Below the pieces are notes generated by a model, which made no database searches, was not told the origin of the DNA, and worked only from the letters and a program-made list of their open reading frames with translations. A stretch of 64,000 nt of DNA from Abditibacteriota bacterium. Lineage in GTDB: Bacteria; Armatimonadota; UBA5829. Shown piece by piece: positions 42,265 through 56,501 of this stretch; position 1 is the stretch's first letter, and each line of letters begins with the position of its first letter. The translations under genes were made by a program, and so were the position numbers. The stretch lies in the NCBI GenBank assembly GCA_017552965.1, contig JAFZNQ010000009.1:62001-126000 (forward strand), in the 5' to 3' direction.

Positions 42265-43767
42265 TTACTCCTTGCCTATAGGCTCTTTTTGCATATAGAG
42301 TCTGACAGCCTTTACCACGTCGGATGCTATCTTGTTTCTGTAATCCTCACTGAAGAGAAAGGTCCTGTCATAATCGTTGTTGATAAAGGCCGCTTCCAGC
42401 AATATGCCCGGAACGCCGCCGGCATTGGCCGCCCGCAGCACGCCAAAGCCCGACTGATACATACGGGTGTCGGACCGGACCTTTCTGTCCGTGAGCTCAT
42501 TGTTTTGGGCCAGAAAGCCGTGAAACAGGGTGCCGAAATACTTGGACAGGGTAAAGTCCTTGTGATAATAGGTCTCTACGCCGGTCCCCGTATTCGGAGT
42601 GCCGCAGGAATTGATGTGAAAGCTGATAAAGAGATCCGAGGAGCGATCCACAGCATATTTGCCTCTGTCGGCAAGAGACATATCTGTGTCATCGGTCCTG
42701 GTCATATACACGGTCACACCCAGCTTTCTGAGCTCTTCGGCAGCCTTCAGGGCGTTCAGGAGATTGAGATCCTTTTCCAGAGTCCCGCCGTAAGTGGCGC
42801 CGGTTTCGGGACCGCCGTGGCCCGGGTCAATGGTAATGACAGCCTCCTCCAGAGGCTTTATGACGGGTGGAGCAAACACCAGCTTCAGGTCATTTCCCTT
42901 TTCCACAAAATAGGGCTCGCGTATATACCGGGACTCTACGGTGATGACCTCGGGCCCGGTCACCCCTGCCGACAGCGTACCGGCAGAACGGATCGGCTTT
43001 TCGGGCAGGAGACCCGACTCCAGAGTCAGAGTGTATATCCCCGTATAGACGTCGCAGGTCACAGAAGGACCGGTGAGGGCGCCGCCTTTGAGAGTCAGCT
43101 CGGAGGAGCCGTCTTTATTATCAGTCAGCTTCACTGACCTTACCTTGCGCACCACCTTTTGATCAAAATCTGTCAGGCTGACCCTTATCGTCCTGTCGTT
43201 GCCACGGGAAGTGAAAGGAGCTGCCGGACCAAACGAGAGATCGCAGTCTATAGTGAGCCGGGAGCCCTTTTGAGACTTGCTCATGCGGCTGATGATATTC
43301 TTTTCTGTGTCATATACGCACTCTGCGTCGTCCGGGAGCGCATTATCTATGACTACAGTCAATTTGCTGCCGGTGGCCCGCAGGGAATATGGGGACAGAA
43401 ATGCGAGATCTATCTCCAGCAAGTCGTCTGTCACCATTATCCCTGTGACAGTGTTCACAAATTCCAGTCTGCCCCGGCTATGCACAGCCTTTGCTCCGAG
43501 AGCCTTTTCGGCAAAAGCAGCCGTCACCACCAAAGAGCCGTCTATCTCGGTGGTCTCCGCCACACTTTCTCCCATGGTCAGAGTGCTGCCTTCGAGACTC
43601 GTCTCCAGCCGGAGATAGTCAAAAAGGGTGACCGGCACGAAGTATTCACCGGCTTCTTTTTTTGCCTTCAGACCGGTATATTTGCCTGCCACGTACAGGT
43701 CGGCGCTTTCCGCCGCATACAAGCAGCCGGCCAGCAGTATGAGAACTGTGATGATGGTGATCTTCAT
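42265..43767 (-). CDS. N-acetylmuramoyl-L-alanine amidase (Amidase_3), copy 2
   Basis: The 500-residue protein has the zinc amidase domain at the C-terminus: TIDPGHGGPETGATYGG, Glu in LEKDLNL, YMTRTDDTDMSLADRG, ISFHINS and the catalytic Glu in LLEAAFINN. Two beta-rich N-terminal domains (copper amine oxidase N-like, then AMIN-like) precede it. The start at 43767 has AAGGGAG upstream; the ATG 21 nt earlier would bury that site. The signal sequence ends LLAGC, a full lipobox, so it may be a lipoprotein. It follows a paralogue with the same layout. Confidence 0.88.
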   Translation of the reverse strand: MKITIITVLILLAGCLYAAESADLYVAGKYTGLKAKKEAGEYFVPVTLFDYLRLETSLEGSTLTMGESVAETTEIDGSLVVTAAFAEKALGAKAVHSRGRLEFVNTVTGIMVTDDLLEIDLAFLSPYSLRATGSKLTVVIDNALPDDAECVYDTEKNIISRMSKSQKGSRLTIDCDLSFGPAAPFTSRGNDRTIRVSLTDFDQKVVRKVRSVKLTDNKDGSSELTLKGGALTGPSVTCDVYTGIYTLTLESGLLPEKPIRSAGTLSAGVTGPEVITVESRYIREPYFVEKGNDLKLVFAPPVIKPLEEAVITIDPGHGGPETGATYGGTLEKDLNLLNALKAAEELRKLGVTVYMTRTDDTDMSLADRGKYAVDRSSDLFISFHINSCGTPNTGTGVETYYHKDFTLSKYFGTLFHGFLAQNNELTDRKVRSDTRMYQSGFGVLRAANAGGVPGILLEAAFINNDYDRTFLFSEDYRNKIASDVVKAVRLYMQKEPIGKE

Positions 43768-43774
43768 GACGTAA

Positions 43775-45331
43775 TTACTCCCTTGCATGGTTTACGGGTC
43801 TCGCTTCAAAATATCTGGTGACTGCCGTCAGGACGTCCTCGGCGATCTTTTGTCTGTAATCAGGTGAGGTCAGGAGAGCTCTGTCTCTGGAATTATTGAT
43901 AAATCCCATCTCCACCAGTATGCCGGGGACGCCTCCCGCGTTGGCGGCCCTCAGCACCCCGAGACCCGAAGAATAGAGAGCAGTATCCGAATGGAGCTTG
44001 CGATTCAAGAGAGAGTTGTTCTTCACGAATTCGCTGTGAAACAGCTCGCCGAAATATTTGGACAGGGTATAATCCTTGTGATAATAAGTCTCGATCCCTG
44101 TCCCGGTATCGGTGCCTTTGCAGGAATTGCAGTGAAAGCTGATCATCAGATCCGAATCCTTTTTGATGGCAAATGCGCCTCTGTCCTTCAGGGAGAGAGT
44201 GGAGTCGTCGGTACGGGTCATATGCACGTTCACGCCCTTCTCCGCCAGGGCTCTGGCTACCTCTCCGGCGGCCAGCAGATTCAGATCCTTTTCGAAAAAG
44301 CTGCCGTAAATGGCGCCCTTGTCGGTCCCCCCGTGCCCGGCGTCAATGGTGACCGTCACATCCGAAAGCTTTTTGACCAGTGGGGCATAAAACACTATGA
44401 CCGTATCCTTTGACTCGGGCCGGACCTCCACGTCCCTGATGTATTCGGAAGCCACCAGGAGAGTCTGGTTGTTGAGTACGCTGACCCTGAGGCCGTTGTC
44501 CGACGCCACTCCCTTGTAGGTGATCTTGCAGTTTTTGACGGAGACGGTGTACTGGCCCTTGTGTATGTCGCAGGACACTACCGGGTGAGTAAAGGCGCCG
44601 TTTTTCAGCACCAGCTCGCAGCTGCCGTCGTATTTGGGATGCAGCTCCACCTTTGAGATTTCGGGCAGAGTGGTGGTGCCGAAGACCTTCAGGTCATAGC
44701 GGATGATATTTTCTTTGCGGTGATATTTGGCGCTGTTGGGCACCTTGCCCAGCAGGTCGAACACCACTCTGGTCGTATTGGCCTCGGGAGTCCCGAACCG
44801 AACGCCGGATATGCGGGGATTGTCCACTGTGTAATCCGTATTCTCCGGAGACTTTTTGAGTGAGTCAAAATCGAATATCAATCGGTTGTCATATACAAAT
44901 ACGGTGTAAGGGCAGGGAAAAGCCAGGTCCAATTCCAGCAAGTCGTCTGTGATCTCTATGTTGCGGATCTTGTTTACAAAATTGATGCTGGAGGAGATGC
45001 TGGTCTCCACGACATCGCAGCCGGTGGCGTCGGCTATCTCATTGACGTTGATGAGATACACGTCCATCATCTTCACGCAGCTGATGACGGACTCGGTGCC
45101 CATTATCCTGATGTTGCCCTGGCCCATCTGTTCGTAATCAAGCCCCAGATGGTTGAATATATCGGGGGATACCAGCACGTCCCTGCCCTGCTTGACAGCC
45201 ATGGCGCAGGTCACTGCTTTTCCGTCCACCTTGACGTTGTATTTCGTATCCTTTGCAGACACTGCTGCGGAGGACAGCAGAGCCATGCAGATGATCGGAA
45301 GTATATAATATACGATATTGCGCAATGTCAT
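43775..45331 (-). CDS. N-acetylmuramoyl-L-alanine amidase (Amidase_3), copy 1
   Basis: The 518-residue paralogue of the next gene shares its layout: signal peptide (residues 1-26, AAVSA), beta-rich N-terminal domains, and Amidase_3 (VTIDAGHGGTDKGAIYG, FFEKDLNLL, HMTRTDDSTLSLKDRG, SFHCNS, GILVEMGFINN). It cleaves the bond between MurNAc and L-Ala, which is needed for cell separation. It lacks the lipobox seen in copy 2, so it should be soluble in the periplasm. It overlaps the PBP2 gene by 4 bp, with AAAGGA as ribosome site. Confidence 0.92.
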   Translation of the reverse strand: MTLRNIVYYILPIICMALLSSAAVSAKDTKYNVKVDGKAVTCAMAVKQGRDVLVSPDIFNHLGLDYEQMGQGNIRIMGTESVISCVKMMDVYLINVNEIADATGCDVVETSISSSINFVNKIRNIEITDDLLELDLAFPCPYTVFVYDNRLIFDFDSLKKSPENTDYTVDNPRISGVRFGTPEANTTRVVFDLLGKVPNSAKYHRKENIIRYDLKVFGTTTLPEISKVELHPKYDGSCELVLKNGAFTHPVVSCDIHKGQYTVSVKNCKITYKGVASDNGLRVSVLNNQTLLVASEYIRDVEVRPESKDTVIVFYAPLVKKLSDVTVTIDAGHGGTDKGAIYGSFFEKDLNLLAAGEVARALAEKGVNVHMTRTDDSTLSLKDRGAFAIKKDSDLMISFHCNSCKGTDTGTGIETYYHKDYTLSKYFGELFHSEFVKNNSLLNRKLHSDTALYSSGLGVLRAANAGGVPGILVEMGFINNSRDRALLTSPDYRQKIAEDVLTAVTRYFEARPVNHARE

Positions 45332-47118
45332 TCGTTTCCTTTCTTGTATTCAAAATAGCTTTCCAGGACTGCCTTTGCCACGGGAGCGGCAGACCCGGAC
45401 CCGCTGGCGCCTCTCTCCACTATGCAGGCTATGGCTATTTTCGGATCTTCGCACGGGGCATAACACACGAACCATCCGTGAGCAGGCCCGCCTGCGGCCT
45501 GAGCCGAGCCGGTCTTGCCTGCAATGCGGACCCCGGGTATGGCTGCAGCCTTGCCGGTGCCGCTGGCCACAGTCCTTTCCATTGCCTTTGCTATTTGCCC
45601 CAGGACTTCCCGGGAAGCGGACACCGAACCTTTTATCTCCTGCTTTGCCTCAAAAATGACAGAGCCCGTGGAGTCGGTGATGCGATCCAGGAGATAAGGT
45701 CTGCAGAGAGAGCCGCCGTTGGCTATGCAGCCTATGGCGCAGGCCATTTGCAGCGGCGAAGCCAGCACGTCGCCCTGTCCGATGGACACGTTGAGGGTAT
45801 CGCCCTTCATCCACTTTCTGTGGGCATGCTCCTCCAGCCATTCGGGATCGGGCACAAGGCCTGTCCTGCCGCCTTTGGAGGGCTCTTCGGGCAGGTCTAT
45901 CCCGGTGGATATGCCCAAGCCGAACTCACGGGAGGTCTCGCATATCTTGTCTATGCCCAGCCTGACGGACTCGGCGTAAAACCATACGTCGCAGGATTCG
46001 CTGACTGCCTTGTAAAAATCCACCCGGCCATGGCTGGTCCAGCACCCCTTTCTGTAGCTGCCCAGTCTGTAATAGCCGGGGCAGGACACAGTGGTGTGTA
46101 CCGATGCGGCCTTGTTTTGCAATATGCCGGCAGATATCACCGGCTTGAAGGTGGAGCCCGGAGGATACACACTGGCAGCCGCTCTGTTTATGAGCGGATG
46201 CTGCTTGTCATCCACCAGCTGTTTCCAGTCCGAGCGCTTCAGGCCTCTCACGAAAATATTGGGATCAAAATCAGGTCTGGACACCATGGCCAGCACCCTG
46301 CCTGTTGATGGTTCTATGGCAGCCAGGGCCCCGGTCTTGCCTTCGAGAGCCTCCCAGGCAGCCTTTTGAAGACGGGAATCCACCGTCAGATGAAGGGTAT
46401 TGCCGGGGACAGATCGCTGCTGTCCCAGATCCTTTACCACTCTGCCCGCCGCATTGACCTCGATCCTCTGACCTCCGTCAAGGCCCTTCAGCTGATCCTC
46501 ATAGTATTTTTCCAGGCCGAATACGCCTACGTAATCGCCCATCCGGTATTGCTTGCCCTGCTCCCGCGCCAGCTTCAGGCTCTCGCCGCTGATCTCTCTG
46601 AGATAGCCGGTGAGATGCGAAAAGTACCGGCCCCGGGGGTAATACCGGACAAAATCGTTTTCTATGACCACTCCGTCAAAGAGCATACGGTGCTCGCCCA
46701 GTGTGACTATGGTGGAAAAAGGCACGTCCACCGCTATCCTGACAGGCGCTCCCACCGGCAGTGACGAGTTGTTGACTATCTCGTGATAATCATCGATGCT
46801 GATCCCCAGTATATGACAAAACTCCGAGAGCTCCCGGGGCTTATCTTTGAATTTTTCGGGAATGGCGGAGATGATAAACAGCTTTTTGCTCTGAGCGATG
46901 GGAATACCTCTCGAGTCCACTATATTGCCTCTGGGGGCTTTGGTCCGTATGATCCTGATACGGTTGTTGTTGGCAGCCTCCAGCAGCATGCGCCCTTCCT
47001 TGATCTGCAGATACCACAGCCTGAAGCCCAGGGCTGCAACTGCTACCGCGAAGATAAAAGCCAGCCAGTAAATACGGGACCTTATCTCAAAAGGCTGAGC
47101 GTCATAGGTGTTTCTCAT
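45328..47118 (-). CDS. mrdA: Penicillin-binding protein 2 (MrdA)
   Basis: The 596-residue transpeptidase from ATG 47118 has an N-terminal membrane anchor (about residues 15-38), the PBP dimerisation domain (RGNIVDSRGIPIAQSK), and the active-site motifs STFK (in YPPGSTFKPV), SCD (in SESCDVWFYAES) and KTG (in IAGKTGSAQA). It cross-links elongation-phase peptidoglycan together with RodA and MreBCD, none of which are here. It overlaps the SPP-like protease gene by 4 bp and the first amidase gene by 4 bp. In-frame sequence upstream of 47118 is not part of it. Confidence 0.94.
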   Translation of the reverse strand: MRNTYDAQPFEIRSRIYWLAFIFAVAVAALGFRLWYLQIKEGRMLLEAANNNRIRIIRTKAPRGNIVDSRGIPIAQSKKLFIISAIPEKFKDKPRELSEFCHILGISIDDYHEIVNNSSLPVGAPVRIAVDVPFSTIVTLGEHRMLFDGVVIENDFVRYYPRGRYFSHLTGYLREISGESLKLAREQGKQYRMGDYVGVFGLEKYYEDQLKGLDGGQRIEVNAAGRVVKDLGQQRSVPGNTLHLTVDSRLQKAAWEALEGKTGALAAIEPSTGRVLAMVSRPDFDPNIFVRGLKRSDWKQLVDDKQHPLINRAAASVYPPGSTFKPVISAGILQNKAASVHTTVSCPGYYRLGSYRKGCWTSHGRVDFYKAVSESCDVWFYAESVRLGIDKICETSREFGLGISTGIDLPEEPSKGGRTGLVPDPEWLEEHAHRKWMKGDTLNVSIGQGDVLASPLQMACAIGCIANGGSLCRPYLLDRITDSTGSVIFEAKQEIKGSVSASREVLGQIAKAMERTVASGTGKAAAIPGVRIAGKTGSAQAAGGPAHGWFVCYAPCEDPKIAIACIVERGASGSGSAAPVAKAVLESYFEYKKGNE

Positions 47119-48062
47119 AGATGGATCTTCCGGACTGCAAAGAGCGCTGCGGCGAGACACAGGAATACGATGGCCATATAGCCCCACTCCCTGCGGGACA
47201 GGCTGAACTCCCTGAAGTTGGCCAGAAGTACCGCCAGACATACAGGCACCAGAGCGGGCAGATACGGCAGAAGGCCGGTGAGTATGAGCAGCATCCCCGC
47301 ATAGAGAAATGCAAATATCATCCAAAAGTTCTTCCGTCCGGCAAAGCCAAAGCGGAACACGCAGGCAAACACCATGGCCGGAAATATAAAATCACCGGCT
47401 CCTATGGTGCTGATGACACTGAATTTGCCCATACCTGCGGCAGGCAGAGAGCTGCTGACTGCGCCGATAGCGGCGGGTGCCTTGTTTATCACGCTGTGCA
47501 CAAAGCCGGAAGACACTGTCCACACGTCTATGATGGCGCAGCACAGCATAATGGGCACCAGCAGGTTCTTTTCCCTGACCACAAAGGACAGGAAATAGCC
47601 GAAAGCCATGGACAGAGTTACTATGAACACGCTGTACACGCCCATATGGGGAGCGCGTATGTTGTTGATGTTCTCCGCCAGAAGCCTCAGCTGCTTGATA
47701 TAGGTGGTATCGGGAGGCCAGGTCTTTACGTGGCTGTGTATCATCATCAGTATGGCCAGCATACCCAAAAGCCCTGCAAAAAAGAAGACGATATACACCC
47801 ACAGAGCAAAGCGCTGCTCGATAAGCTTGTACACAAAGGCAAACTGCAGCAGCATGGTCACAAAGGCAGAAGAGAGCGTGACGAACAGGAACACCGCAGC
47901 TGCTGCCTTTTTTCCTGCAGCATCACTCACGAGAGCGCACAATCGGTCCACTCTCATGAGCGGCAGCAGATACCAGCACGCCAAAAAGGCCGCAACGCAC
48001 ACAAGGCTCACCACCCAGGGCGTTCCGGCTGCTTTTGCCAGCGCGCTCTTAACGGCTTTCAT
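47115..48062 (-). CDS. Presenilin/signal peptide peptidase-like intramembrane aspartyl protease (GxGD)
   Basis: The 315-residue protein has about nine membrane segments. Asp179 lies in a hydrophobic segment (AIIDVWTV); GAGD at 221-224 lies in the next (STIGAGDFIFPAMVFACVFR); PAL at 269-271 begins the segment after one more helix (YLPALVPVCLAV). These are the three signatures of A22 proteases. D179 and D224 are 45 apart (46 in human SPP), and the text after GAGD and PAL resembles SPP (FP...RF; LVP.C). The usual Tyr before the first Asp is Ile. Prepilin peptidases also use GxGD but lack PAL. Start ATG 48062 is preferred over an upstream in-frame codon inside rhaB. The gene overlaps rhaB by 14 bp and mrdA by 4 bp. 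Confidence 0.8.
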   Translation of the reverse strand: MKAVKSALAKAAGTPWVVSLVCVAAFLACWYLLPLMRVDRLCALVSDAAGKKAAAAVFLFVTLSSAFVTMLLQFAFVYKLIEQRFALWVYIVFFFAGLLGMLAILMMIHSHVKTWPPDTTYIKQLRLLAENINNIRAPHMGVYSVFIVTLSMAFGYFLSFVVREKNLLVPIMLCCAIIDVWTVSSGFVHSVINKAPAAIGAVSSSLPAAGMGKFSVISTIGAGDFIFPAMVFACVFRFGFAGRKNFWMIFAFLYAGMLLILTGLLPYLPALVPVCLAVLLANFREFSLSRREWGYMAIVFLCLAAALFAVRKIHL

Positions 48063-49536
48063 CACAGAGAGCGTCAAATCTGTCGAAGACTTCCGACGGC
48101 ACCTCGGCATCCGGCTCGACGCGGCCGATGTTCTCGGAGCGCCTGATGATCTCTCTGGCTTCCCAGACGTCCTTTACGGCTCCCGAGGAAATGGCCTGGA
48201 CCATGATGTTGCCTATGACCGTGCCTTCGGCAGGCCCGGTCACCACTGTCCTCTGACAGGCATTGGCAGTGAGGCCCGACAGGATCACGTTTTTGATACC
48301 GCCGCCCACCATATGGATGCGCTTTATCTTCTGTCCGGTGATCTCCTCCAGATTCAGGATCACCTGCCTGTAAGCAAGAGCCAGGGAATCGTTGACGCAG
48401 CGAATGATCTCTCCCACAGTCTGAGGCACGTATTGACCGGTCCTGCGGCAGAAGTCCTGTATCTTGGCGGGCATATTGCCTGCGGACACGAATTCCTGCT
48501 GGTTGGGGTCGATCAGGCTTCTGAAGCCGGGACACTCCGCCGCCTGCTGAGTCATATCCCCATAGGATATGTCCTTGCCTTCGGCCAGCCAGAATCTCCG
48601 GCATTCCTGCACTATCCACAAGCCTGTGATGTTTTTGAGGAACCTGATGGTATTGTAGGCTCCGCCTTCGTTGGTGTAATTGCAGCGGGCCGAATCGGCA
48701 TTGACCACCGGGCCCGGGAGCTCCATACCCACCAGAGACCAGGTCCCGCAGCTGATAAAAGCCGCATCGGAGGATTCAAAGGGCACCGCCACTACGGCTG
48801 AAGCAGTGTCATGCTCCGGCACCGAAAAGACGGGGATGTCATAGGAGACTCCCATTTCGGCCTTGATATCCTCGGTGACACAGCCCAGGAGGGAGCCGGT
48901 ATCATTGATCTCGGGCAGTATGCGAGTGGGGACTCCGGCCAGTTCGGCTATATCCGTCGCCCAGGTCTTGTCGTATACGTTGAGCATCTGAGAGGTAGAG
49001 GCTATGGAATACTCGGTCTTTTTGACGCCGGTGATCCAGTAGTTCAGGATGTCGGGCACCATGAGCAGAGTCTCTGCGTTTTCCAAAGCCGCCGGATTGT
49101 CTCTGCCGGCCACATACAGCTGAAACAGAGTGTTGATATCCATGCTCTGGATGCCGACTCTCTGAAACACTGCGTCTCTGTCCATCTTTTCGGCATAAAA
49201 ACGGTCGGATGCTCCTACAAAGGATTCGTCCCTGTACTGACAGGGCAAAAAGCACAGCTCACCGTCAGAGTCCAGCAGGCCGTAATCCACTCCCCAGGTA
49301 TCGATGCCGATGCCCGCAATGGGAGTACGGGCGGCCTCGGCAGCCTTTCGGAGACCGATCTTGATCTCCTTGAAAAGGCTGTAGAGCATCCATTTCTTTT
49401 TGCCGTTGATGACTATATAGTCGTTGAGGAACCTGTGGGCCTCTTTTACGGACAGCCTGCCCTCGGAGAGCTCTCCCAGAAACACTCTGCCGCTCTCGGC
49501 CCCCAGATCCACTGCAGCAAATGTCATAGTGTCCAT
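48049..49536 (-). CDS. rhaB: Rhamnulokinase
   Basis: The 495-residue FGGY kinase phosphorylates L-rhamnulose. Its N-terminus AVDLGAESGRVFLGEL, GIDTWGVDYGLLD, MVPDILNYWITG, PEHDTASAVVAVPF and CGTWSLVGMELPGP match the RhaB branch. It shares 1 bp with the rhaA stop and overlaps the SPP-like gene by 14 bp. The third enzyme, rhamnulose-1-phosphate aldolase (RhaD), is not in the window. Confidence 0.95.
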   Translation of the reverse strand: MDTMTFAAVDLGAESGRVFLGELSEGRLSVKEAHRFLNDYIVINGKKKWMLYSLFKEIKIGLRKAAEAARTPIAGIGIDTWGVDYGLLDSDGELCFLPCQYRDESFVGASDRFYAEKMDRDAVFQRVGIQSMDINTLFQLYVAGRDNPAALENAETLLMVPDILNYWITGVKKTEYSIASTSQMLNVYDKTWATDIAELAGVPTRILPEINDTGSLLGCVTEDIKAEMGVSYDIPVFSVPEHDTASAVVAVPFESSDAAFISCGTWSLVGMELPGPVVNADSARCNYTNEGGAYNTIRFLKNITGLWIVQECRRFWLAEGKDISYGDMTQQAAECPGFRSLIDPNQQEFVSAGNMPAKIQDFCRRTGQYVPQTVGEIIRCVNDSLALAYRQVILNLEEITGQKIKRIHMVGGGIKNVILSGLTANACQRTVVTGPAEGTVIGNIMVQAISSGAVKDVWEAREIIRRSENIGRVEPDAEVPSEVFDRFDALCDESR

Positions 49537-50798
49537 CAGTGTCTTTCTCCCGCCACCTTGTTCTGATACCGGACGGCGTCATCGATCCATGCGTCACCCG
49601 TGGGGACGTTGTTTGACAGACAGAAGTAATCCCATACTGCGCTCCAGGGGCGGCATCTGGATTCGGTAAGACGGGCCAGTCTCTCGAAATAGGCTCCCTT
49701 GTTTTCCAGCTCCTTCAGGACGGAGACGGGCTGCAAAAGCCCCAGAAGCAGAGCCTTCTGAGCGTCACGCAGGCCCATGATCATGGCGCCGGTGCGATTG
49801 ATGGAGCCGTCAAAATAGTCCAGACCGATGTTGAAATGATCCGTGCCGAGACGCACCACCTGCTCCATGATATTCCGCAGGGTATCGTCCAGAATGGTCA
49901 CGTGGTCCGAATCCCAGCGGACAGGTCTGGAGATATGCAGCATGATCTCGTCCATAAAGCACAGGACGGAGCTGAATTTGTCGCTGATGTCTTCCGTGGG
50001 ATGAAAATGTCCGGAATCGTAGCATATCATGGTCCCGGGATGGGTCATGCAATAAGGAGTATAGAACTCGTTGGAGCCCACGGTATAGCTTTCGACTCCC
50101 ACGCCGAAGAGCTTGATCTCCAGAGAGTCAGCCAGCTCCGAACCGCTGTATTTGACCGACAGTATGTCATCCAGAGAATTCTTGAGGATCTCTCTGTGGG
50201 CCTTTCTGTCAATGGGTATGTCCTTGTAGCCGTCGGGGATCCAGATGTTGTTTACCACCCTCTTGCCGGTCTTTTTGCCCAGCCAGGCTCCTATCTTTCT
50301 GGAGCGCTTGGCGTGATCGATCCAGAAGCTCCTTATCTTGTCGTCCTTGCTGGACAGGGTAAAGTTGTCCGCAGCCAGAGGATGAGAGAAAAATGTGCCG
50401 TTGAAATCCAGACCGAAATCCTTGCTGTTGGCCCAATCGGCCCAGTAGGCAAAATGCTCGGGCTCTACCTGATCTCTGTCCACCTTTTTTCCCTTGAAGT
50501 CTCCGTAGATGGCGTGGAGGTCCAGCCTGTGCTTGCCGGCCACCTTGCTAAAGCTGAAGTCCAGGTCTTCCGTGACCTCTTCGATATTTCGGGCCTTGCC
50601 GGGGTTTGAGCCGGTGACGGCTATGCCGCCGGTGATCTCGCCGCCTCCCTCAAAGCCGGCCACGTCGTCAGACTGCCAGATGTGCAGGGAAATGGGTATG
50701 CTGCCCAGAATATCTATAGCCTTGTCGGTGTCGACGCCGGCCTCGGCATAAACTTCCTTTGCCAATTCGTAGGAAGCGATTATCTGCTTGTCGTTCAT
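49536..50798 (-). CDS. rhaA: L-rhamnose isomerase
   Basis: The 420-residue enzyme converts L-rhamnose to L-rhamnulose. Collinearity with E. coli RhaA is clear through the whole length: IPISLHIWQSDDVAGFE, GGIAVTGSNPGKARN, RLDLHAIYGDF, GLDFNGTFFSHPLAADNFTLS, WIPDGYKDIPIDR, ESYTVGSNEFY, SGHFHPTE and SRPVRWDSDHV, including the metal ligands. It has GAGG as ribosome site and its own extended -10 promoter (50829-50837). It is the first gene of a ten-gene run. Confidence 0.96.
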   Translation of the reverse strand: MNDKQIIASYELAKEVYAEAGVDTDKAIDILGSIPISLHIWQSDDVAGFEGGGEITGGIAVTGSNPGKARNIEEVTEDLDFSFSKVAGKHRLDLHAIYGDFKGKKVDRDQVEPEHFAYWADWANSKDFGLDFNGTFFSHPLAADNFTLSSKDDKIRSFWIDHAKRSRKIGAWLGKKTGKRVVNNIWIPDGYKDIPIDRKAHREILKNSLDDILSVKYSGSELADSLEIKLFGVGVESYTVGSNEFYTPYCMTHPGTMICYDSGHFHPTEDISDKFSSVLCFMDEIMLHISRPVRWDSDHVTILDDTLRNIMEQVVRLGTDHFNIGLDYFDGSINRTGAMIMGLRDAQKALLLGLLQPVSVLKELENKGAYFERLARLTESRCRPWSAVWDYFCLSNNVPTGDAWIDDAVRYQNKVAGERH

Positions 50799-50828
50799 AA
50801 TGAGTACCTCGTTAATAAATACACTTAT

Positions 50829-50837
50829 ATTATATCA
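50829..50837 (-). promoter_or_regulatory. Extended -10 promoter for rhaA and downstream genes
   Basis: On the minus strand TGTGA precedes TATAAT (50834-50829), with TTGTTC 16 bp further upstream. Start near 50822, about 24 nt before the rhaA ATG. A rhamnose-responsive site was not identified. Confidence 0.6.
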
Positions 50838-50882
50838 CAAAACAAAATGAGAACAAAATCACGTCCATAGACGGCACACCTG

Positions 50883-52133
50883 TCAGCCGAGAGTCAGCTT
50901 TTTGAGACAGCCGCCTTCCATGACCTTGATAAGGGGCACCTTTGAATTGGAGATCAGGTTTTTGATCACCAGATTGTCTATATTGGAATAGACCTTGATG
51001 TATTCGCTCTTGCCTTCAAAATCCTCTTCGTTGATATAGAGGCCGTCAATGTAGATATTGCCTATATCCGACGGGTGGCGCACTATGTCGCTGCCGTCGT
51101 CAAGACCTATGTCCATCAGTGAATAATGTTTGGTGTGGGCGTGCCAGAACACGTTCTTGATGACCAGATTCTCCACCTTGCCCCCTACCCTGAACAGCAT
51201 ATTGTTTACGTAGTCGTAGGTGGGCTTCTCGTGATCCACGAACACGTTCTCTATATACACCGAGCCTATATTGCCCTGAGCTTCCCTGTACCAGGGATTG
51301 ATGTAAAAGCCGTAGCTGTTGTAGGTGCCTGTGACGTTTCTGATGGTGACTCTGTCCAGCCTGCCGGTGCCGCGGCTCAGCAGCCTGATGCCCTGATCCG
51401 AATTGTTCATCATGAGGCCGTCTATGATGACGTCGGTGATATCGCTCTTGCAGTCGTATTCGTCCGGAGTGATGGCTATGATATCATCCCCCGCCGTACC
51501 CTGTATGTTGCGCAGATTGAGAAAACGGCCCGGGCCTATGAAGTGGAGACCGTCCTGATTCTGATACGGCATATGATCCGGCAGGTCTATCTTGATGTTG
51601 TCCATGTTCACCCTTTCAAAGTTCACGCAGTGAAAGGCGTAGGTCCTCTGATTTCTGAAGACCACGTCCTTGAGGGTGAGATCCCTGATGCCTACGAATT
51701 CCATGGCCATCACGCCTCTCCTATAAGCCGGCAAAAACTCACTGGGCACAAAGGTCTCGCATATTGCCTCATGGGGCTCCTGAGTGTGATGGACCTGATT
51801 GCGGCAATTGTGATTGAAGGTGCCGCCAAGTATGGTCACGTTGGAGGTCTTGATCTTGACGGCGCTCTTGCCGGAATTGGTGATCAGAAAATTGTCGGCA
51901 TGGTCTGCCAGATACAGACCGCAGGAGGCGTCGGGGCATTCTATGGTGGTATTGGAATGCACCGTGAGGCCGGTCGTCAGAGCGGCTCCGTCCAGAACCA
52001 GGTGGACTCTGCCATCCACCAGGGCCTTGTCCAGCAGGGCCTGCAGGGCGCGGGTGTCGTCAGTGCCCCCTCCCAGTATCACGTTGCTGTCCAGCCGGCA
52101 ATAATCGCTGGCGTAATATTTGTTGTTTTCCAT
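50883..52133 (-). CDS. GH28-like right-handed beta-helix protein (polygalacturonase family)
   Basis: The 416-residue protein from ATG 52133 (GAGGAG site) has a GH28-type N-terminus (GGTDDTRALQALLDKAL, LVLDGAALTTGLTVHSNTTIEC) and helical coils with asparagine-rich turns. The region FERVNMDNIKIDLPDHMPYQNQDGLHFIGP and TAGDDIIAI resembles the GH28 catalytic core (NTDG, DD). GH28 enzymes cut pectins, including rhamnogalacturonan. There is no signal peptide, so it should act on imported oligosaccharides. It lies between GH36 and rhaA, which supports a role in pectic sugar use. Confidence 0.75.
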   Translation of the reverse strand: MENNKYYASDYCRLDSNVILGGGTDDTRALQALLDKALVDGRVHLVLDGAALTTGLTVHSNTTIECPDASCGLYLADHADNFLITNSGKSAVKIKTSNVTILGGTFNHNCRNQVHHTQEPHEAICETFVPSEFLPAYRRGVMAMEFVGIRDLTLKDVVFRNQRTYAFHCVNFERVNMDNIKIDLPDHMPYQNQDGLHFIGPGRFLNLRNIQGTAGDDIIAITPDEYDCKSDITDVIIDGLMMNNSDQGIRLLSRGTGRLDRVTIRNVTGTYNSYGFYINPWYREAQGNIGSVYIENVFVDHEKPTYDYVNNMLFRVGGKVENLVIKNVFWHAHTKHYSLMDIGLDDGSDIVRHPSDIGNIYIDGLYINEEDFEGKSEYIKVYSNIDNLVIKNLISNSKVPLIKVMEGGCLKKLTLG

Positions 52134-52166
52134 TGTGGGCTCCTCGAAAGCAGTGTTGCTATTCTT

Positions 52167-52195
52167 ATTATAGTTAATCGGCGGCGATAAGTAAA
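52167..52195 (-). promoter_or_regulatory. Promoter for the GH28-like gene
   Basis: On the minus strand TTTACT (52195-52190), a 17-bp spacer and TATAAT (52172-52167). Start near 52160, about 27 nt before the ATG at 52133. Confidence 0.5.
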
Positions 52196-52223
52196 GAGAA
52201 AAGGGCGGCACCGGGACCGCCCT
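52195..52223 (-). terminator. Intrinsic terminator of the GH36 gene
   Basis: On the minus strand AGGGCGG (52223-52217), an 8-nt loop and CCGCCCT (52208-52202) are followed by TTTTCTCTTT. It lies 6 bp after the GH36 stop. Confidence 0.8.
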
Positions 52224-52229
52224 CATATA

Positions 52230-54089
52230 TCACAAGGGTCTGAATTCTATGATCAGACTGGAGCGCTTTTCGGGCAATTCGACCCGGATGCCGCTCATGA
52301 GCTCTTTGCCCGTGCGGATCGCAGTCTTCCTTTTGTAGGTCTCGTCGATAAAGGTCACCCTGTATGTGGTCCGTGGCTCCAGATCCACAAGCCTGATGGT
52401 TTTCACCGCTTCTTCATCCTCTGCTCTGCGAAATACAGCCACGCAGCCCCTGTTATTTTTGATAAGCTGATAAGCGAAGCCGACGGTTTCGGAGGGGCAA
52501 ATGTCCGTCAGGGCTTTATACCGTCCATCCCAGAACGGAGCAAGACGCCTGACCTCCTTCATGGCATTTTCGGCAAGCATGGGCTCGTACTGGGGATTGG
52601 CCATATCGTAATCGACTATTATACCGCTTGTCATGGCCGAACGGACCTCATAGGCCTTTTCCCACCAGCAGGATGCCGTATGGAAAGGCAGATAAGTATG
52701 GAGACCGGCGTTTTCGTTCTGGTGTATCATAGCGGTCTGAGGACCGCCTGAGCAGCTGGTATCGCTCTGCCACATGGGCATAGCGCGGCTCATGGTCTCC
52801 AGATCGTTGCGCCTGCCGCCGGAAGCGCAATTGTCGATATAGAGCTCCGGAAAACGCTCCAAAAGCTCATCCCAGTATTTATACAAGCCGGTAATATACT
52901 TGTTTTCGGTGATCCCCTTCTGCCCCGCAGGGTCGGCCGCGCGCCAGAATTCAAGAGGATCCGCGTTGAAGTCCTGCCTGTAGCAGTCTATACCGTTTTC
53001 TTCTATAAAATCACCTATAGTCCGGGCAAGCCATTTGCGGGCTTCGTCGTTTCCCATGTTGAAGATCCTGTTGCGGTGATCGGGAGGGTTTTGCAGGATC
53101 CAGCCGGGTTTGTCCTTGGCGAAGGTGTAAGTGTCAGATTCTATATCTATCCGCTCGGGCTCAAACCATACGATGAACTTCATGCCGTGTTCATGGAGAA
53201 CACGCGAGATATTCTTGAGGCCCTCAGGAAACCCCTCGCAGAAAGCGTAATTGCCAACACCCGTGGGAAAGCCGTCCCGGAACCAGCAGGCGTCGATCCA
53301 ATAGGTGTTGTAGAGCCCGGTCTTTATGGTGCGGTCTATCATGGCAAGCTGGCCTTGTTCCGTGGCAATATTACTTCTCGTGGCTTCTCCCCAGAAATAC
53401 CTGTCAAAGCACTGCATGGCAATGGGAACTCTGAAGCCTTTGCGTACAGCTGGGCTGTAATACTTCTTATGAAACTGCCTGAAACCGTTGGTGAGTTCAT
53501 AACGGTCAGGCGAACCGAAATACAGTAGCGAGCGGGTGCTGCGTATCTCCTCGCCGGGCAAAAGATACATATCGCAGTCCTCCTGGCCGGCTTTAAGTAC
53601 CACCGATCCGGGCAGTTTTTCAACAGTCAGGTCCCACTGCCCCGTCCATCCAATAGCGCCCACAAAGCCCTTGTCCTTGCCTGTAACGTCAAAATAGGGA
53701 AAGGCCGTAACCTGGCTGGATCGGCCATTCAGAGGCGAAAATGCCAGAATAGTTCCGTCAAACAAGGTCTTATTTACCGGCAGAAAATTTTGCTCGCTGC
53801 AATGATCTCCGGTGATGGAGTTGAATTCCGCTTTGCCGGATACAGGTATCTCTGTGTCCATTCCCAGCAAAGCTGTAATGCGTCCTGTTTTCCCGGATCC
53901 GGTATTTTTGATGTATAAAGTCCAGTCCAGGCTGTTCTCCGTTTTGGACTCGACCTTCAAAGTGACAAGAAGATTGTCAAACAGAGTCTTGCTGTACTCG
54001 TTTTTGCCGGTTTTGTCCAGGATGTCGATGGAAACGGGAACATACCTGCCGTCATAGACAAAGCTGGCTAATCTTTTGTTCTTAAGCAT
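52230..54089 (-). CDS. Alpha-galactosidase-like glycoside hydrolase, GH36
   Basis: The 619-residue enzyme has an N-terminal beta-sandwich domain (to about residue 210), a barrel with YWIDACWFRDGFPTGVGNYA, KFIVWFEPERID, the nucleophile region GIDCYRQDFN and the acid/base region YIDNCASGGRRNDLE, and a C-terminal beta domain. These are GH36 signatures (alpha-galactosidase or related). No signal peptide, so cytoplasmic. It stands alone with its own promoter and terminator. The GGAG ribosome site is 6 nt before the ATG. Confidence 0.88.
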   Translation of the reverse strand: MLKNKRLASFVYDGRYVPVSIDILDKTGKNEYSKTLFDNLLVTLKVESKTENSLDWTLYIKNTGSGKTGRITALLGMDTEIPVSGKAEFNSITGDHCSEQNFLPVNKTLFDGTILAFSPLNGRSSQVTAFPYFDVTGKDKGFVGAIGWTGQWDLTVEKLPGSVVLKAGQEDCDMYLLPGEEIRSTRSLLYFGSPDRYELTNGFRQFHKKYYSPAVRKGFRVPIAMQCFDRYFWGEATRSNIATEQGQLAMIDRTIKTGLYNTYWIDACWFRDGFPTGVGNYAFCEGFPEGLKNISRVLHEHGMKFIVWFEPERIDIESDTYTFAKDKPGWILQNPPDHRNRIFNMGNDEARKWLARTIGDFIEENGIDCYRQDFNADPLEFWRAADPAGQKGITENKYITGLYKYWDELLERFPELYIDNCASGGRRNDLETMSRAMPMWQSDTSCSGGPQTAMIHQNENAGLHTYLPFHTASCWWEKAYEVRSAMTSGIIVDYDMANPQYEPMLAENAMKEVRRLAPFWDGRYKALTDICPSETVGFAYQLIKNNRGCVAVFRRAEDEEAVKTIRLVDLEPRTTYRVTFIDETYKRKTAIRTGKELMSGIRVELPEKRSSLIIEFRPL

Positions 54090-54212
54090 TTTTTCTCCTT
54101 ACGGACTTTCGGCCCATGTCGCAGCCTATGAGACTGCGAAGATGATAAGCGGCAGGAATATGGCCGCATATTACATGTATCGGCTCTCCGGTTTTAAATT
54201 ATATCTAAAAGT

Positions 54213-54221
54213 ATTATATCA
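54213..54221 (-). promoter_or_regulatory. Extended -10 promoter for the GH36 gene
   Basis: On the minus strand TGTGA precedes TATAAT (54218-54213). A second TATAAT lies 15 bp downstream (54203-54198). No -35 consensus is visible at normal spacing. Confidence 0.5.
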
Positions 54222-54361
54222 CACCGGCCATCGAAGAATCTGCAACGGGCTCACTCTGTTTGTCTTTCCCCAAGATGGCGCCGGGGTGGTGTCGCGCCTT
54301 CGGTCATGCAGATCGACACCGGACATCCGGCGTCATATCAGCGGCAAAGCTCACCGGACAC

Positions 54362-54387
54362 AAAAAAGACTGCGCTTTCGCGCAGTC
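54362..54387 (-). terminator. Intrinsic terminator of glnN
   Basis: On the minus strand GACTGCGC (54387-54380), a GAAA tetraloop and GCGCAGTC (54375-54368) form a perfect stem followed by six T residues (54367-54362). Confidence 0.93.
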
Positions 54388-54395
54388 TCTGCTGT

Positions 54396-56501
54396 CTACA
54401 AGTATTTGAAAAGCAGGTCCGTATAGGTGGGTATAGGCCAATAATCCAGATCTATCACCGCTTCTATCTTGTCGGACTCGATACGCATCTGCAGCATCAG
54501 AGGCCTCAGCCTGCCAAACACCGCATCTGCCTTTTCCACGTTGTTTTCGATGGCCTTTATCTCCGTGATCATATCGGACAGCCTGTTCACCCGTTCCGTA
54601 AGACTGTCTATGGAGTCCAGCATCAGCTGCAGAGTGTCCTTTATGGCCTTCGAGGGCTCAAAGCCCGCCTTTTTGATGGCAGTGATATCGCTGCCCAGGC
54701 TGCCGGAGTAGCTTATCACCGAAGGTATGATATCCCTGCTGATCATCTTCTTCATGGTCGATGCTTCCAGGATCACCGCCTTGATATATCTTTCCAGCAA
54801 TATATCATATCTGGCCTGCAGCTCCACCTCGGAAAGGACCCCGTGCTTCAAAAAGAGTGCCTGTACCTCCGGAGCGATAAGCTCCTTCAGAGCCGAAGGG
54901 GTGGACACCAGATTCAGAAGGCCTCTCTTTTGCGCTTCTTCCACCCATTCCCGGGAATAATTGTCGCCATTGAATATGATGCGGCCGTTTTCCTTCAATG
55001 TCAGGGCTGCCAGGTCTCTGGCGGTCTGATGGATGTCTTTGGACTTTTCCAGCTTGTCGGCAAATTCGGACAGCACTTCTGCGATCATGGTGTTCAGGGC
55101 AAAATTGGGACCCGAGGTGGATTGAGCGGAGCCCACCATGCGGAACTCGAATTTGTTGCCGGTAAAGGCCATGGGAGACGTGCGGTTGCGGTCGTTGGTG
55201 TCCAGATACAGGGTCTGGATGCTCTGACTGAGCTCCAGAGCCTTGCGCTTGGACCTCTTGCCGGTCTTGCTCTTGATAAAGTCGGATATGGCATTCATGA
55301 GCGTGTCGCCCAGAAAGATGCTGATGATGGCCGGAGGAGCCTCGTTGCCTCCCAGTCTGTGGTCGTTCCCGGCGGTGGCGACGGTGGACCGCAAAAGCCC
55401 CTGATACTTGTCCACGGCTCTTAATACGGCGCAGATAAACACCATGAACCGGTCGTTCTCACTCATAGCGGAGCCCGGCGAAAACAGATTCTCGCCCGTA
55501 TTGGTGATCAGCGAGTAGTTGTTGTGCTTGCCGGAACCATTGAGCCCCTTGAAGGGCTTCTCGTGCAGGAGACACATGAAGCCGTGCCGCTCGGCCACTC
55601 TTTTCAGGGTGTCCATGATGAGCTGGTTCTGGTCGGTGGCCACGTTCACCGAGCCGAAATATGGGGCTATCTCAAACTGAGCCGGAGCCACCTCGTTGTG
55701 CTGCGCGTTGACGCATACTCCCAGCTTCCAGAGCTCGGAGGAGATCTCGTTCATAAAGGTGGCTACGCTCTCCTTGATGCTCCCGTAATAATGGTCTTCC
55801 AGGTCATCCTGGCCCTTGGCTGACAGCTCTCCGAACAGGGTCCTGCCGCAGAGCTTCAGGTCCAGCCGTTTTTCCGCCAGCTCCAGAGGCACCAGAAAAT
55901 ATTCCTGCTCAGCTCCCATAGCCGGGACTACCCGGGCGGTCTCTTTGTCTCCCAGAGCCCGCAGCACTCTGAGGGCCTGCTTATTGAGAGCGTCGATGCT
56001 GCGGAGAAGAGGGGTCTTCTTGTCCAGTATCTCTCCGTTCTGAGAGCAAAAGGCGCAGGGGATATACAGAGATATCATGTCGCCGTTTTCCTTGACGAAC
56101 ATGGGACTGGACACGTCCCACACTGTGTAGCCTCTGGCTTCAAAGGTAGCTCTCAGACCTCCCGAAGGGAAGGACGATGCGTCCGACTCGCCTTTGATGA
56201 GCTGCTTGCCGCCGAATTCCGCAATGGCTCTGCCTCCGTCATCGGGAGTAATAAAGGCATTGTGCTTTTCGGCAGTCACTTCCGTCATAGGCTGAAACCA
56301 GTGACAATAATGAGTGGCTCCCTTGCTGATGGCCCAATCCTTTATGGCGGCCGCCACTATATCGGCGGTCTCCGGATCCAGTGACTCGCCGAGGTCCATG
56401 GCTCTTTTGACAGCGGCAAATACGTCCTGCGACAGACGCTCGCGCATCACGGATTCGCTGAACACATTGGTCCCGTACATTGCAAATGGATCTGTTTTCA
56501 T
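54396..56501 (-). CDS. glnN: Glutamine synthetase, type III
   Basis: The 701-residue enzyme makes glutamine from glutamate and ammonia. Its size and motifs (THYCHWFQPMT, EKHNAFITP, SFPSGGLRATFEARGYTVWD, GAEQEYFLVP, GNDHRLGGNEAPPAIISIFLG) are those of GSIII, the large form found in Bacteroides, cyanobacteria and rumen anaerobes, not of the 450-residue GSI. AGGAGG lies just upstream. A GGCCC/GGGCC hairpin precedes it, after the phosphoesterase stop. It has its own strong terminator. Confidence 0.95.
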   Translation of the reverse strand: MKTDPFAMYGTNVFSESVMRERLSQDVFAAVKRAMDLGESLDPETADIVAAAIKDWAISKGATHYCHWFQPMTEVTAEKHNAFITPDDGGRAIAEFGGKQLIKGESDASSFPSGGLRATFEARGYTVWDVSSPMFVKENGDMISLYIPCAFCSQNGEILDKKTPLLRSIDALNKQALRVLRALGDKETARVVPAMGAEQEYFLVPLELAEKRLDLKLCGRTLFGELSAKGQDDLEDHYYGSIKESVATFMNEISSELWKLGVCVNAQHNEVAPAQFEIAPYFGSVNVATDQNQLIMDTLKRVAERHGFMCLLHEKPFKGLNGSGKHNNYSLITNTGENLFSPGSAMSENDRFMVFICAVLRAVDKYQGLLRSTVATAGNDHRLGGNEAPPAIISIFLGDTLMNAISDFIKSKTGKRSKRKALELSQSIQTLYLDTNDRNRTSPMAFTGNKFEFRMVGSAQSTSGPNFALNTMIAEVLSEFADKLEKSKDIHQTARDLAALTLKENGRIIFNGDNYSREWVEEAQKRGLLNLVSTPSALKELIAPEVQALFLKHGVLSEVELQARYDILLERYIKAVILEASTMKKMISRDIIPSVISYSGSLGSDITAIKKAGFEPSKAIKDTLQLMLDSIDSLTERVNRLSDMITEIKAIENNVEKADAVFGRLRPLMLQMRIESDKIEAVIDLDYWPIPTYTDLLFKYL

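Follow-up and report, generated by a model that had tools for sequence, protein, structure and literature searches.

Armatimonadota encode a family of membrane proteins, here called PSL (presenilin/SPP-like), which had previously been unannotated and whose members are likely to be diaspartyl intramembrane proteases of the presenilin/SPP kind (A22, GxGD). The new family is almost universal in the phylum and therefore probably ancestral to it; that its members catalyse proteolysis is inferred. The gene described here lies in the window, by which we mean the whole analysed stretch of 64,000 nucleotides from an Abditibacteriota bacterium.

Presenilin is known as the Alzheimer's-linked protease. 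Proteases of the presenilin/SPP type have been described from eukaryotes and archaea (PMC2947513, PMC9263693, PMC7768045), and the first presenilin-like proteases to be demonstrated outside the eukaryotes came from archaea (PMC2947513). In the literature that we searched, which excluded subscription papers, no paper named both presenilin and Armatimonadetes. We do not claim a first bacterial family, as the distribution of A22 proteins in other bacterial phyla was left unchecked.

The PSL gene and its surroundings

The PSL open reading frame covers 948 bases of the minus strand, with its ATG at 48062 and its TGA at 47117-47115, and is the only copy in the source genome. The start codon is uncertain, since a second open ATG is found at 48110. 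The following features are referred to below:

45328..47118, minus strand: PBP2-type transpeptidase (PF00905 and PF03717); its pairing with PSL is also seen in the same genus (L031)
47115..48062, minus strand: PSL gene, 315 aa, nine predicted TM helices (open reading frame, AF2 model, homologues in 268 of 291 Armatimonadota genomes)
47250..47258, minus strand: P269-A270-L271, the PAL motif before the TM9 equivalent (conserved; aligned to the PAL of presenilin-1)
47391..47402, minus strand: G221-A-G-D224 with the second putative catalytic aspartate, at the start of the TM7 equivalent (conserved; aligned to GLGD of presenilin-1)
47400..47510, minus strand: loop 185-221 with short helices 187-194 and 196-201 and strands 203-205 and 219-221 (AF2 model; the same elements in a second model)
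47511..47570, minus strand: helix 165-184 with the first putative catalytic aspartate (D179, codon 47526-47528), the presenilin TM6 equivalent (aspartate invariant in 60 of 60; helix in the AF2 model)
48049..49536, minus strand: rhamnulokinase-like FGGY kinase (rhaB), the upstream neighbour of PSL (PF00370 and PF02782; adjacency not conserved)

D179 is embedded in AIIDVWTV and stands 45 residues before D224 of the G221-A-G-D224 motif, which is followed by P269-A-L. A preliminary description, made from the sequence alone, had claimed the open reading frame 47115-48062, D179, GAGD at 221-224, PAL at 269-271 and the 45-residue spacing, and the sequence confirms all of these.

The PSL stop and the PBP2 start overlap by 4 bp (ATGA, 47118-47115), while the PSL start lies 14 bp within the end of rhaB (at 48049). 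Downstream of PBP2, the stretch 42265-45331 on the minus strand holds two Amidase_3 (N-acetylmuramoyl-L-alanine amidase) paralogues in tandem. Their ends overlap, and the first has a weak AMIN domain match. On the other side, a minus-strand row at 48049-56501 comprises rhaB, rhaA, GH28-like, melibiase-like and type III glutamine synthetase genes, which suggests plant polysaccharide use. One genome of the same genus came from goat rumen.

PSL is nearly universal in Armatimonadota and conserves a catalytic set

Using a profile of 22 members, we found PSL relatives in 268 of 291 Armatimonadota genomes, mostly one per genome, and 186 of 194 good genomes and 152 of 156 genera were positive. A plain protein search gave a match in 56 of 61 related genomes. 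The few high-completeness genomes without a match include G219 and G220 (1.5 Mb, one genus) and G040, G053 and G066 (another genus), and such genomes possibly point to loss or divergence in particular lineages. No relatives were found in the viral contigs or plasmids searched. A contig scan with a narrow pattern gave no PSL matches outside Armatimonadota, which does not prove absence; one match carried the label Bacillota (L044), but its placement was not checked.

The conservation of the family is shown directly by its alignments. In the first 30 homologues, G155, P170, D179, G186, G221, D224, F227, P269, N282 and E292 are invariant, and in the wider set D179, G221 and D224 are each retained in all 60 rows with a residue at the position. 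Residue 223, the third of GxGD, is G in 45 and A in 15 members, giving the family motif G-x-[GA]-D. At the PAL position, P is present in 57 and L in 56 of 59 members, and the middle residue (A 35, G 18, L 5, V 1) makes the motif mostly P-[AG]-L; some members (L049, L050) read PALP, as in presenilin. The GxGD and PAL motifs of the preliminary description therefore held for the window protein and are looser family-wide.

The strict pattern D-x35-75-GxGD-x35-70-PAL did not occur in any of 631 other genes called around PSL loci, 36 of which have four or more hydrophobic segments. Given this result and the conservation, the arrangement of D179, GAGD and PAL is far beyond chance.

In a few genomes, a second PSL-domain copy is fused into proteins of more than 1000 aa (L049 7116-10250; G041:C47 and G054:C23, with open frames of 1070 and 1081 aa, respectively). 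In these fusions, the PSL domain is preceded by a weak match to CarboxypepD_reg and followed by a long C-terminal region that has no Pfam match and looks hydrolase-like by eye.

Family profiles point to presenilin-1

Searches with the single window sequence gave no Pfam, NCBIfam or PDB sequence match, and no single PSL member exceeded a Pfam or NCBIfam cut-off. When 22 members were scanned singly, Pfam Presenilin was the model touched most often (4 of 22, best E 0.049, below cut-off). By contrast with these single-sequence searches, a match to presenilin is shown by family profiles: profile A1 (25 members) searched against 177,635 PDB sequences had presenilin-1 as its best match (2kr6, E 0.028), and for the broader profile A2 presenilin-1 was the sole match in the same set (E 0.0012). 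Both alignments place the family GxGD on GLGD and the family P-A-L on PAL of presenilin-1. In addition, hhalign of A2 against SPPL2a, PSEN1 and SPP fragments gave a probability of 76% (P 2.3e-5) on the GxGD helix; of these fragments, SPPL2a and PSEN1 were taken from search output, and SPP was not drawn from a database record. BLASTP of the window protein against the SPPL2a fragment found no match.

Searches with the curated A22 models were less informative. PF01080 and PF04258, run over 61 genomes with E up to 10, yielded scattered weak matches, only three of them on PSL genes (G028, G035, G036). We do not count these as evidence, because they are weak and scattered and because, for PF01080, E. 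coli-type controls match as well. PF06550, the model of the archaeal PSH family, matched nothing in 121 Armatimonadota genomes, with Haloferax and Methanosarcina as positive controls. PSL does not exceed the curated cut-off of PF01080, PF04258 or PF06550 and is therefore regarded as a new family of the A22 kind that is a member of none of the three models. DUF1614 (PF07758) was considered as a PSL relative and rejected, with no match in 41 genomes.

The predicted fold matches A22 proteases

For the window protein, AF2 gave a model with a mean pLDDT of 88.3 and a pTM of 0.85. A second model was made for L045 (Candidatus Hebobacteria; pLDDT 86.1), which is only about 20% identical to the window protein. 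In VIA-align, the top 24 rows for the window model are all A22 (Z 14.0 to 9.0), with PSEN1 at Z 14.0 (3.0 Å over 189 residues), SPPL2a at 12.1 and archaeal PSH at 10.8 (4y6k) and 10.5 (4hyg), whereas the first non-A22 fold, HGSNAT, follows at Z 6.0. The L045 model gave a very similar ranking (PSEN1 13.8, at about 3 Å over about 190 residues; SPPL2a 11.9; PSH 11.3), and its first unrelated fold reached 7.5 over 63 residues. Foldseek returned presenilin-1 or SPPL2a chains as the first eight PDB matches of the window model (probability 0.75-0.98, best E 0.02) and only A22 proteins in the top 14 of the L045 model (best E 0.0017, probability 1.00). These fold matches are shown, albeit for predicted models. 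Over the full length, Foldseek TM-scores reach only 0.28-0.42 for the best-ranking A22 rows, probably owing to a failure of the last helix and of parts of the N-terminal half to superpose.

The structural alignments also bear on the PAL motif. The alignment to 8oqz ends at model residue 287 and PSEN1 residue 451, which places P269 on P433 provided that there is no gap between; the alignment to 9k93 ends at 287/481 and places P269 on P463, the proline of the SPPL2a PAL motif. Both models have nine helices arranged as four, the catalytic helix and four more, including one helix after the TM9 equivalent, and in both a short strand directly precedes GxGD, with a further one about 15 residues before it. 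It is at the site of these strands that substrate-bound gamma-secretase is known to form its hybrid sheet. The match begins within the second PSL helix, where PSEN1 TM1 starts. Judging by the lengths aligned and the directions of the helices, without comparing coordinates, we infer that PSL has an added helix at each end and lacks two helices of presenilin, probably TM3 and TM4; such differences would account for the low full-length TM-scores. The models predict that the catalytic half shares the presenilin fold; the distance between the two aspartates was not measured.

The preliminary description had proposed a nine-helix presenilin/SPP-like aspartyl protease, to be checked by Pfam search and by comparison of an AlphaFold model with archaeal PSH. 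The nine helices held, but as 4 + 1 + 4 and not as the 5 + TM6-9 of presenilin. The proposed kinship is supported by family profiles, motifs and models, while protease activity remains inferred. Single-sequence searches with Presenilin and Peptidase_A22B stayed below cut-off, and it was the family profile against the PDB that led to presenilin-1; the PSH comparison gave a match (Z 10.8), with only A22 folds at comparable Z. A transporter or MreD-like match had been named as refuting, and none that was convincing appeared in the Pfam scans of PSL and its homologues.

Two other readings of these data have to be considered. First, PSL could have the A22 fold without being a protease, acting as a scaffold or carrier whose aspartates serve, for example, proton-coupled transport or lipid handling. 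In favour of this reading, the N-terminal half differs from presenilin, no PSL activity is known and a common fold does not prove function. Against it, the invariant set includes the catalytic set (both aspartates, the GxGD glycine and the PAL proline), some of which non-catalytic members would be expected to lose, and both models predict strands before GxGD. We consider it unlikely.

Secondly, PSL could be an enzyme of the prepilin-peptidase type (A24, TFPP/FlaK), the other GxGD class. A24 enzymes, which use an aspartate and GxGD in membrane helices, are common in bacteria, and we found A24 in 12 of 14 control genomes. PSL has no PF01478 match, though, the A24 gene of the source genome lies elsewhere (G000:C39), and PAL, the TM9 equivalent and the fold match all point to A22. 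FlaK is not in the VIA lists of the PSL models; these lists are limited and cannot exclude it. Overall, an A24 identity is very improbable. Nor does PSL stand in for prepilin peptidase, as the source genome has that separate A24 gene.

Charge bias predicts an outward active site

For PSL as an A22-type protein, the distribution of charges indicates the orientation in the membrane. Loops 82-88, 159-166, 236-245 and 283-293 have a mean Lys/Arg density of 0.253 per residue versus 0.069 in the alternate loops, and the predicted-inside loops are the richer ones in 60 of 61 alignment rows. This charge pattern is shown; by the positive-inside rule, the loop joining the catalytic helices is then predicted to face outward. 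The N-terminus and the four loops would be inside and the active site would open outward, as in SPP and unlike presenilin. Counting against this model, the C-terminal tails carry about 1.2 Lys/Arg in their last six residues, although they are predicted to be outside.

In the natural fusion L049, a CarboxypepD_reg-like region (E 4.7e-6, below the curated cut-off) is followed by a hydrophobic helix, an Arg-rich linker and the first PSL helix. This fusion supports an outward active site, because CarboxypepD_reg is usually extracytoplasmic.

The PBP2 neighbour is restricted to one genus

Across the phylum, the gene upstream of PSL is a divergent response regulator in 24 of the 57 loci with an upstream gene, and in 21 of 57, spread over several Armatimonadota families, a histidine kinase comes next. 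Of the one representative of each that was scanned, the regulator has an ANTAR domain and the kinase GAF and HisKA_2 domains. Such PdtaR/PdtaS-like pairs, divergent from PSL, are found at L083 1659-2261, L035 4825-6552 and equivalents. Downstream, leuS is the commonest gene (20 of 59 loci), sometimes followed by comEA- and comEC-like genes. PBP2 adjoins PSL in 2 of 60 loci only, namely the window and L031, which belong to two species of the same genus and have overlapping gene ends in both cases.

These data bear on a third alternative, in which PSL is a component of cell-wall elongation, for instance MreD-like, given its place beside PBP2, where mreD often lies. The overlapping PSL/PBP2 ends in the window and L031 and the two amidases after PBP2 speak for it. 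Against it stand the rarity of the PBP2 adjacency and the prevalence of leuS, the absence of PF04093 from all Pfam scans of PSL and its homologues, and the fold match to A22, so that we regard this reading as very unlikely as well. The preliminary description had also inferred, from the overlap with rhaB and PBP2, that PSL may cut signal-peptide remnants or membrane anchors of wall proteins. This part held only partly: since the PBP2 link is limited to one genus, a cell-wall role is hinted at for this genus only and does not characterise the family, and the rhaB adjacency is not conserved.

Proposed function and significance

In the A22 protease reading, D179 and D224 on neighbouring helices would activate a water molecule. 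PAL is known to bind the substrate strand (PMC7768045), and P269-A-L would hold an unwound substrate strand beside the aspartates, probably by adding it to the predicted sheet 203-205/219-221. SPP and presenilin are mutually inverted and cut substrates of opposite orientation (PMC7768045). Because the predicted PSL orientation is that of SPP, its substrates are expected to be single-pass N-in segments, namely type II membrane anchors and the remnants of signal peptides. That PSL is catalytic, which class of substrate it cuts and whether it takes part in the turnover of wall proteins or signals are all matters of inference, with no activity shown.

A replacement of SppA by PSL was considered and rejected, as 50 of 61 genomes, the source genome among them, have S49 peptidases.

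A bolder reading, which we favour by a narrow margin only, is that PSL forms a third branch of presenilin-type proteases, a bacterial one that the ancestor of the phylum already possessed, with a rearranged scaffold and an SPP-like orientation, and that it has a housekeeping role in dealing with signal peptides and type II anchors. Its scaffold would have kept the core catalytic helices, lacked two N-terminal presenilin helices and gained one helix at each end. If this is true, presenilin-type proteolysis extends beyond the archaeal-eukaryotic line.

A near-universal, mostly single-copy bacterial family would reopen the questions of the origin and the minimal scaffold of presenilin-type enzymes, and it may provide small, partner-free proteins for mechanistic work. 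It also makes bacterial aspartyl intramembrane proteolysis beyond prepilin processing testable, and the analysis proposes what a so far unannotated core gene of Armatimonadota may do.

Comparison with known systems

A24 prepilin peptidases and FlaK (PF01478) resemble PSL as diaspartyl membrane proteins with GxGD in bacteria; unlike PSL, A24 enzymes are not known to have PAL. Archaeal PSH/MCMJR1 (PF06550; PMC2947513) is likewise a prokaryotic single-chain GxGD protein with a matching fold, but its model is the one that finds nothing in the 121 Armatimonadota genomes. Presenilin (PSEN1, the catalytic subunit of gamma-secretase; MEROPS A22A, PF01080) shares with PSL the aspartate of the TM6 equivalent, GxGD in TM7 and PAL before TM9. 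At about 14% identity, PSL differs from it in having four instead of five helices before the helix of the first aspartate and an extra C-terminal helix, in lacking the long TM6-TM7 loop that carries the autocleavage site and, judged by charge, in its opposite orientation. In contrast to SPP and SPPL2a (A22B, PF04258), PSL is bacterial, has no sequence match above cut-off, different N-terminal helices and an extra C-terminal helix; with these proteins it has in common the motifs, the fold and the predicted outward active site.
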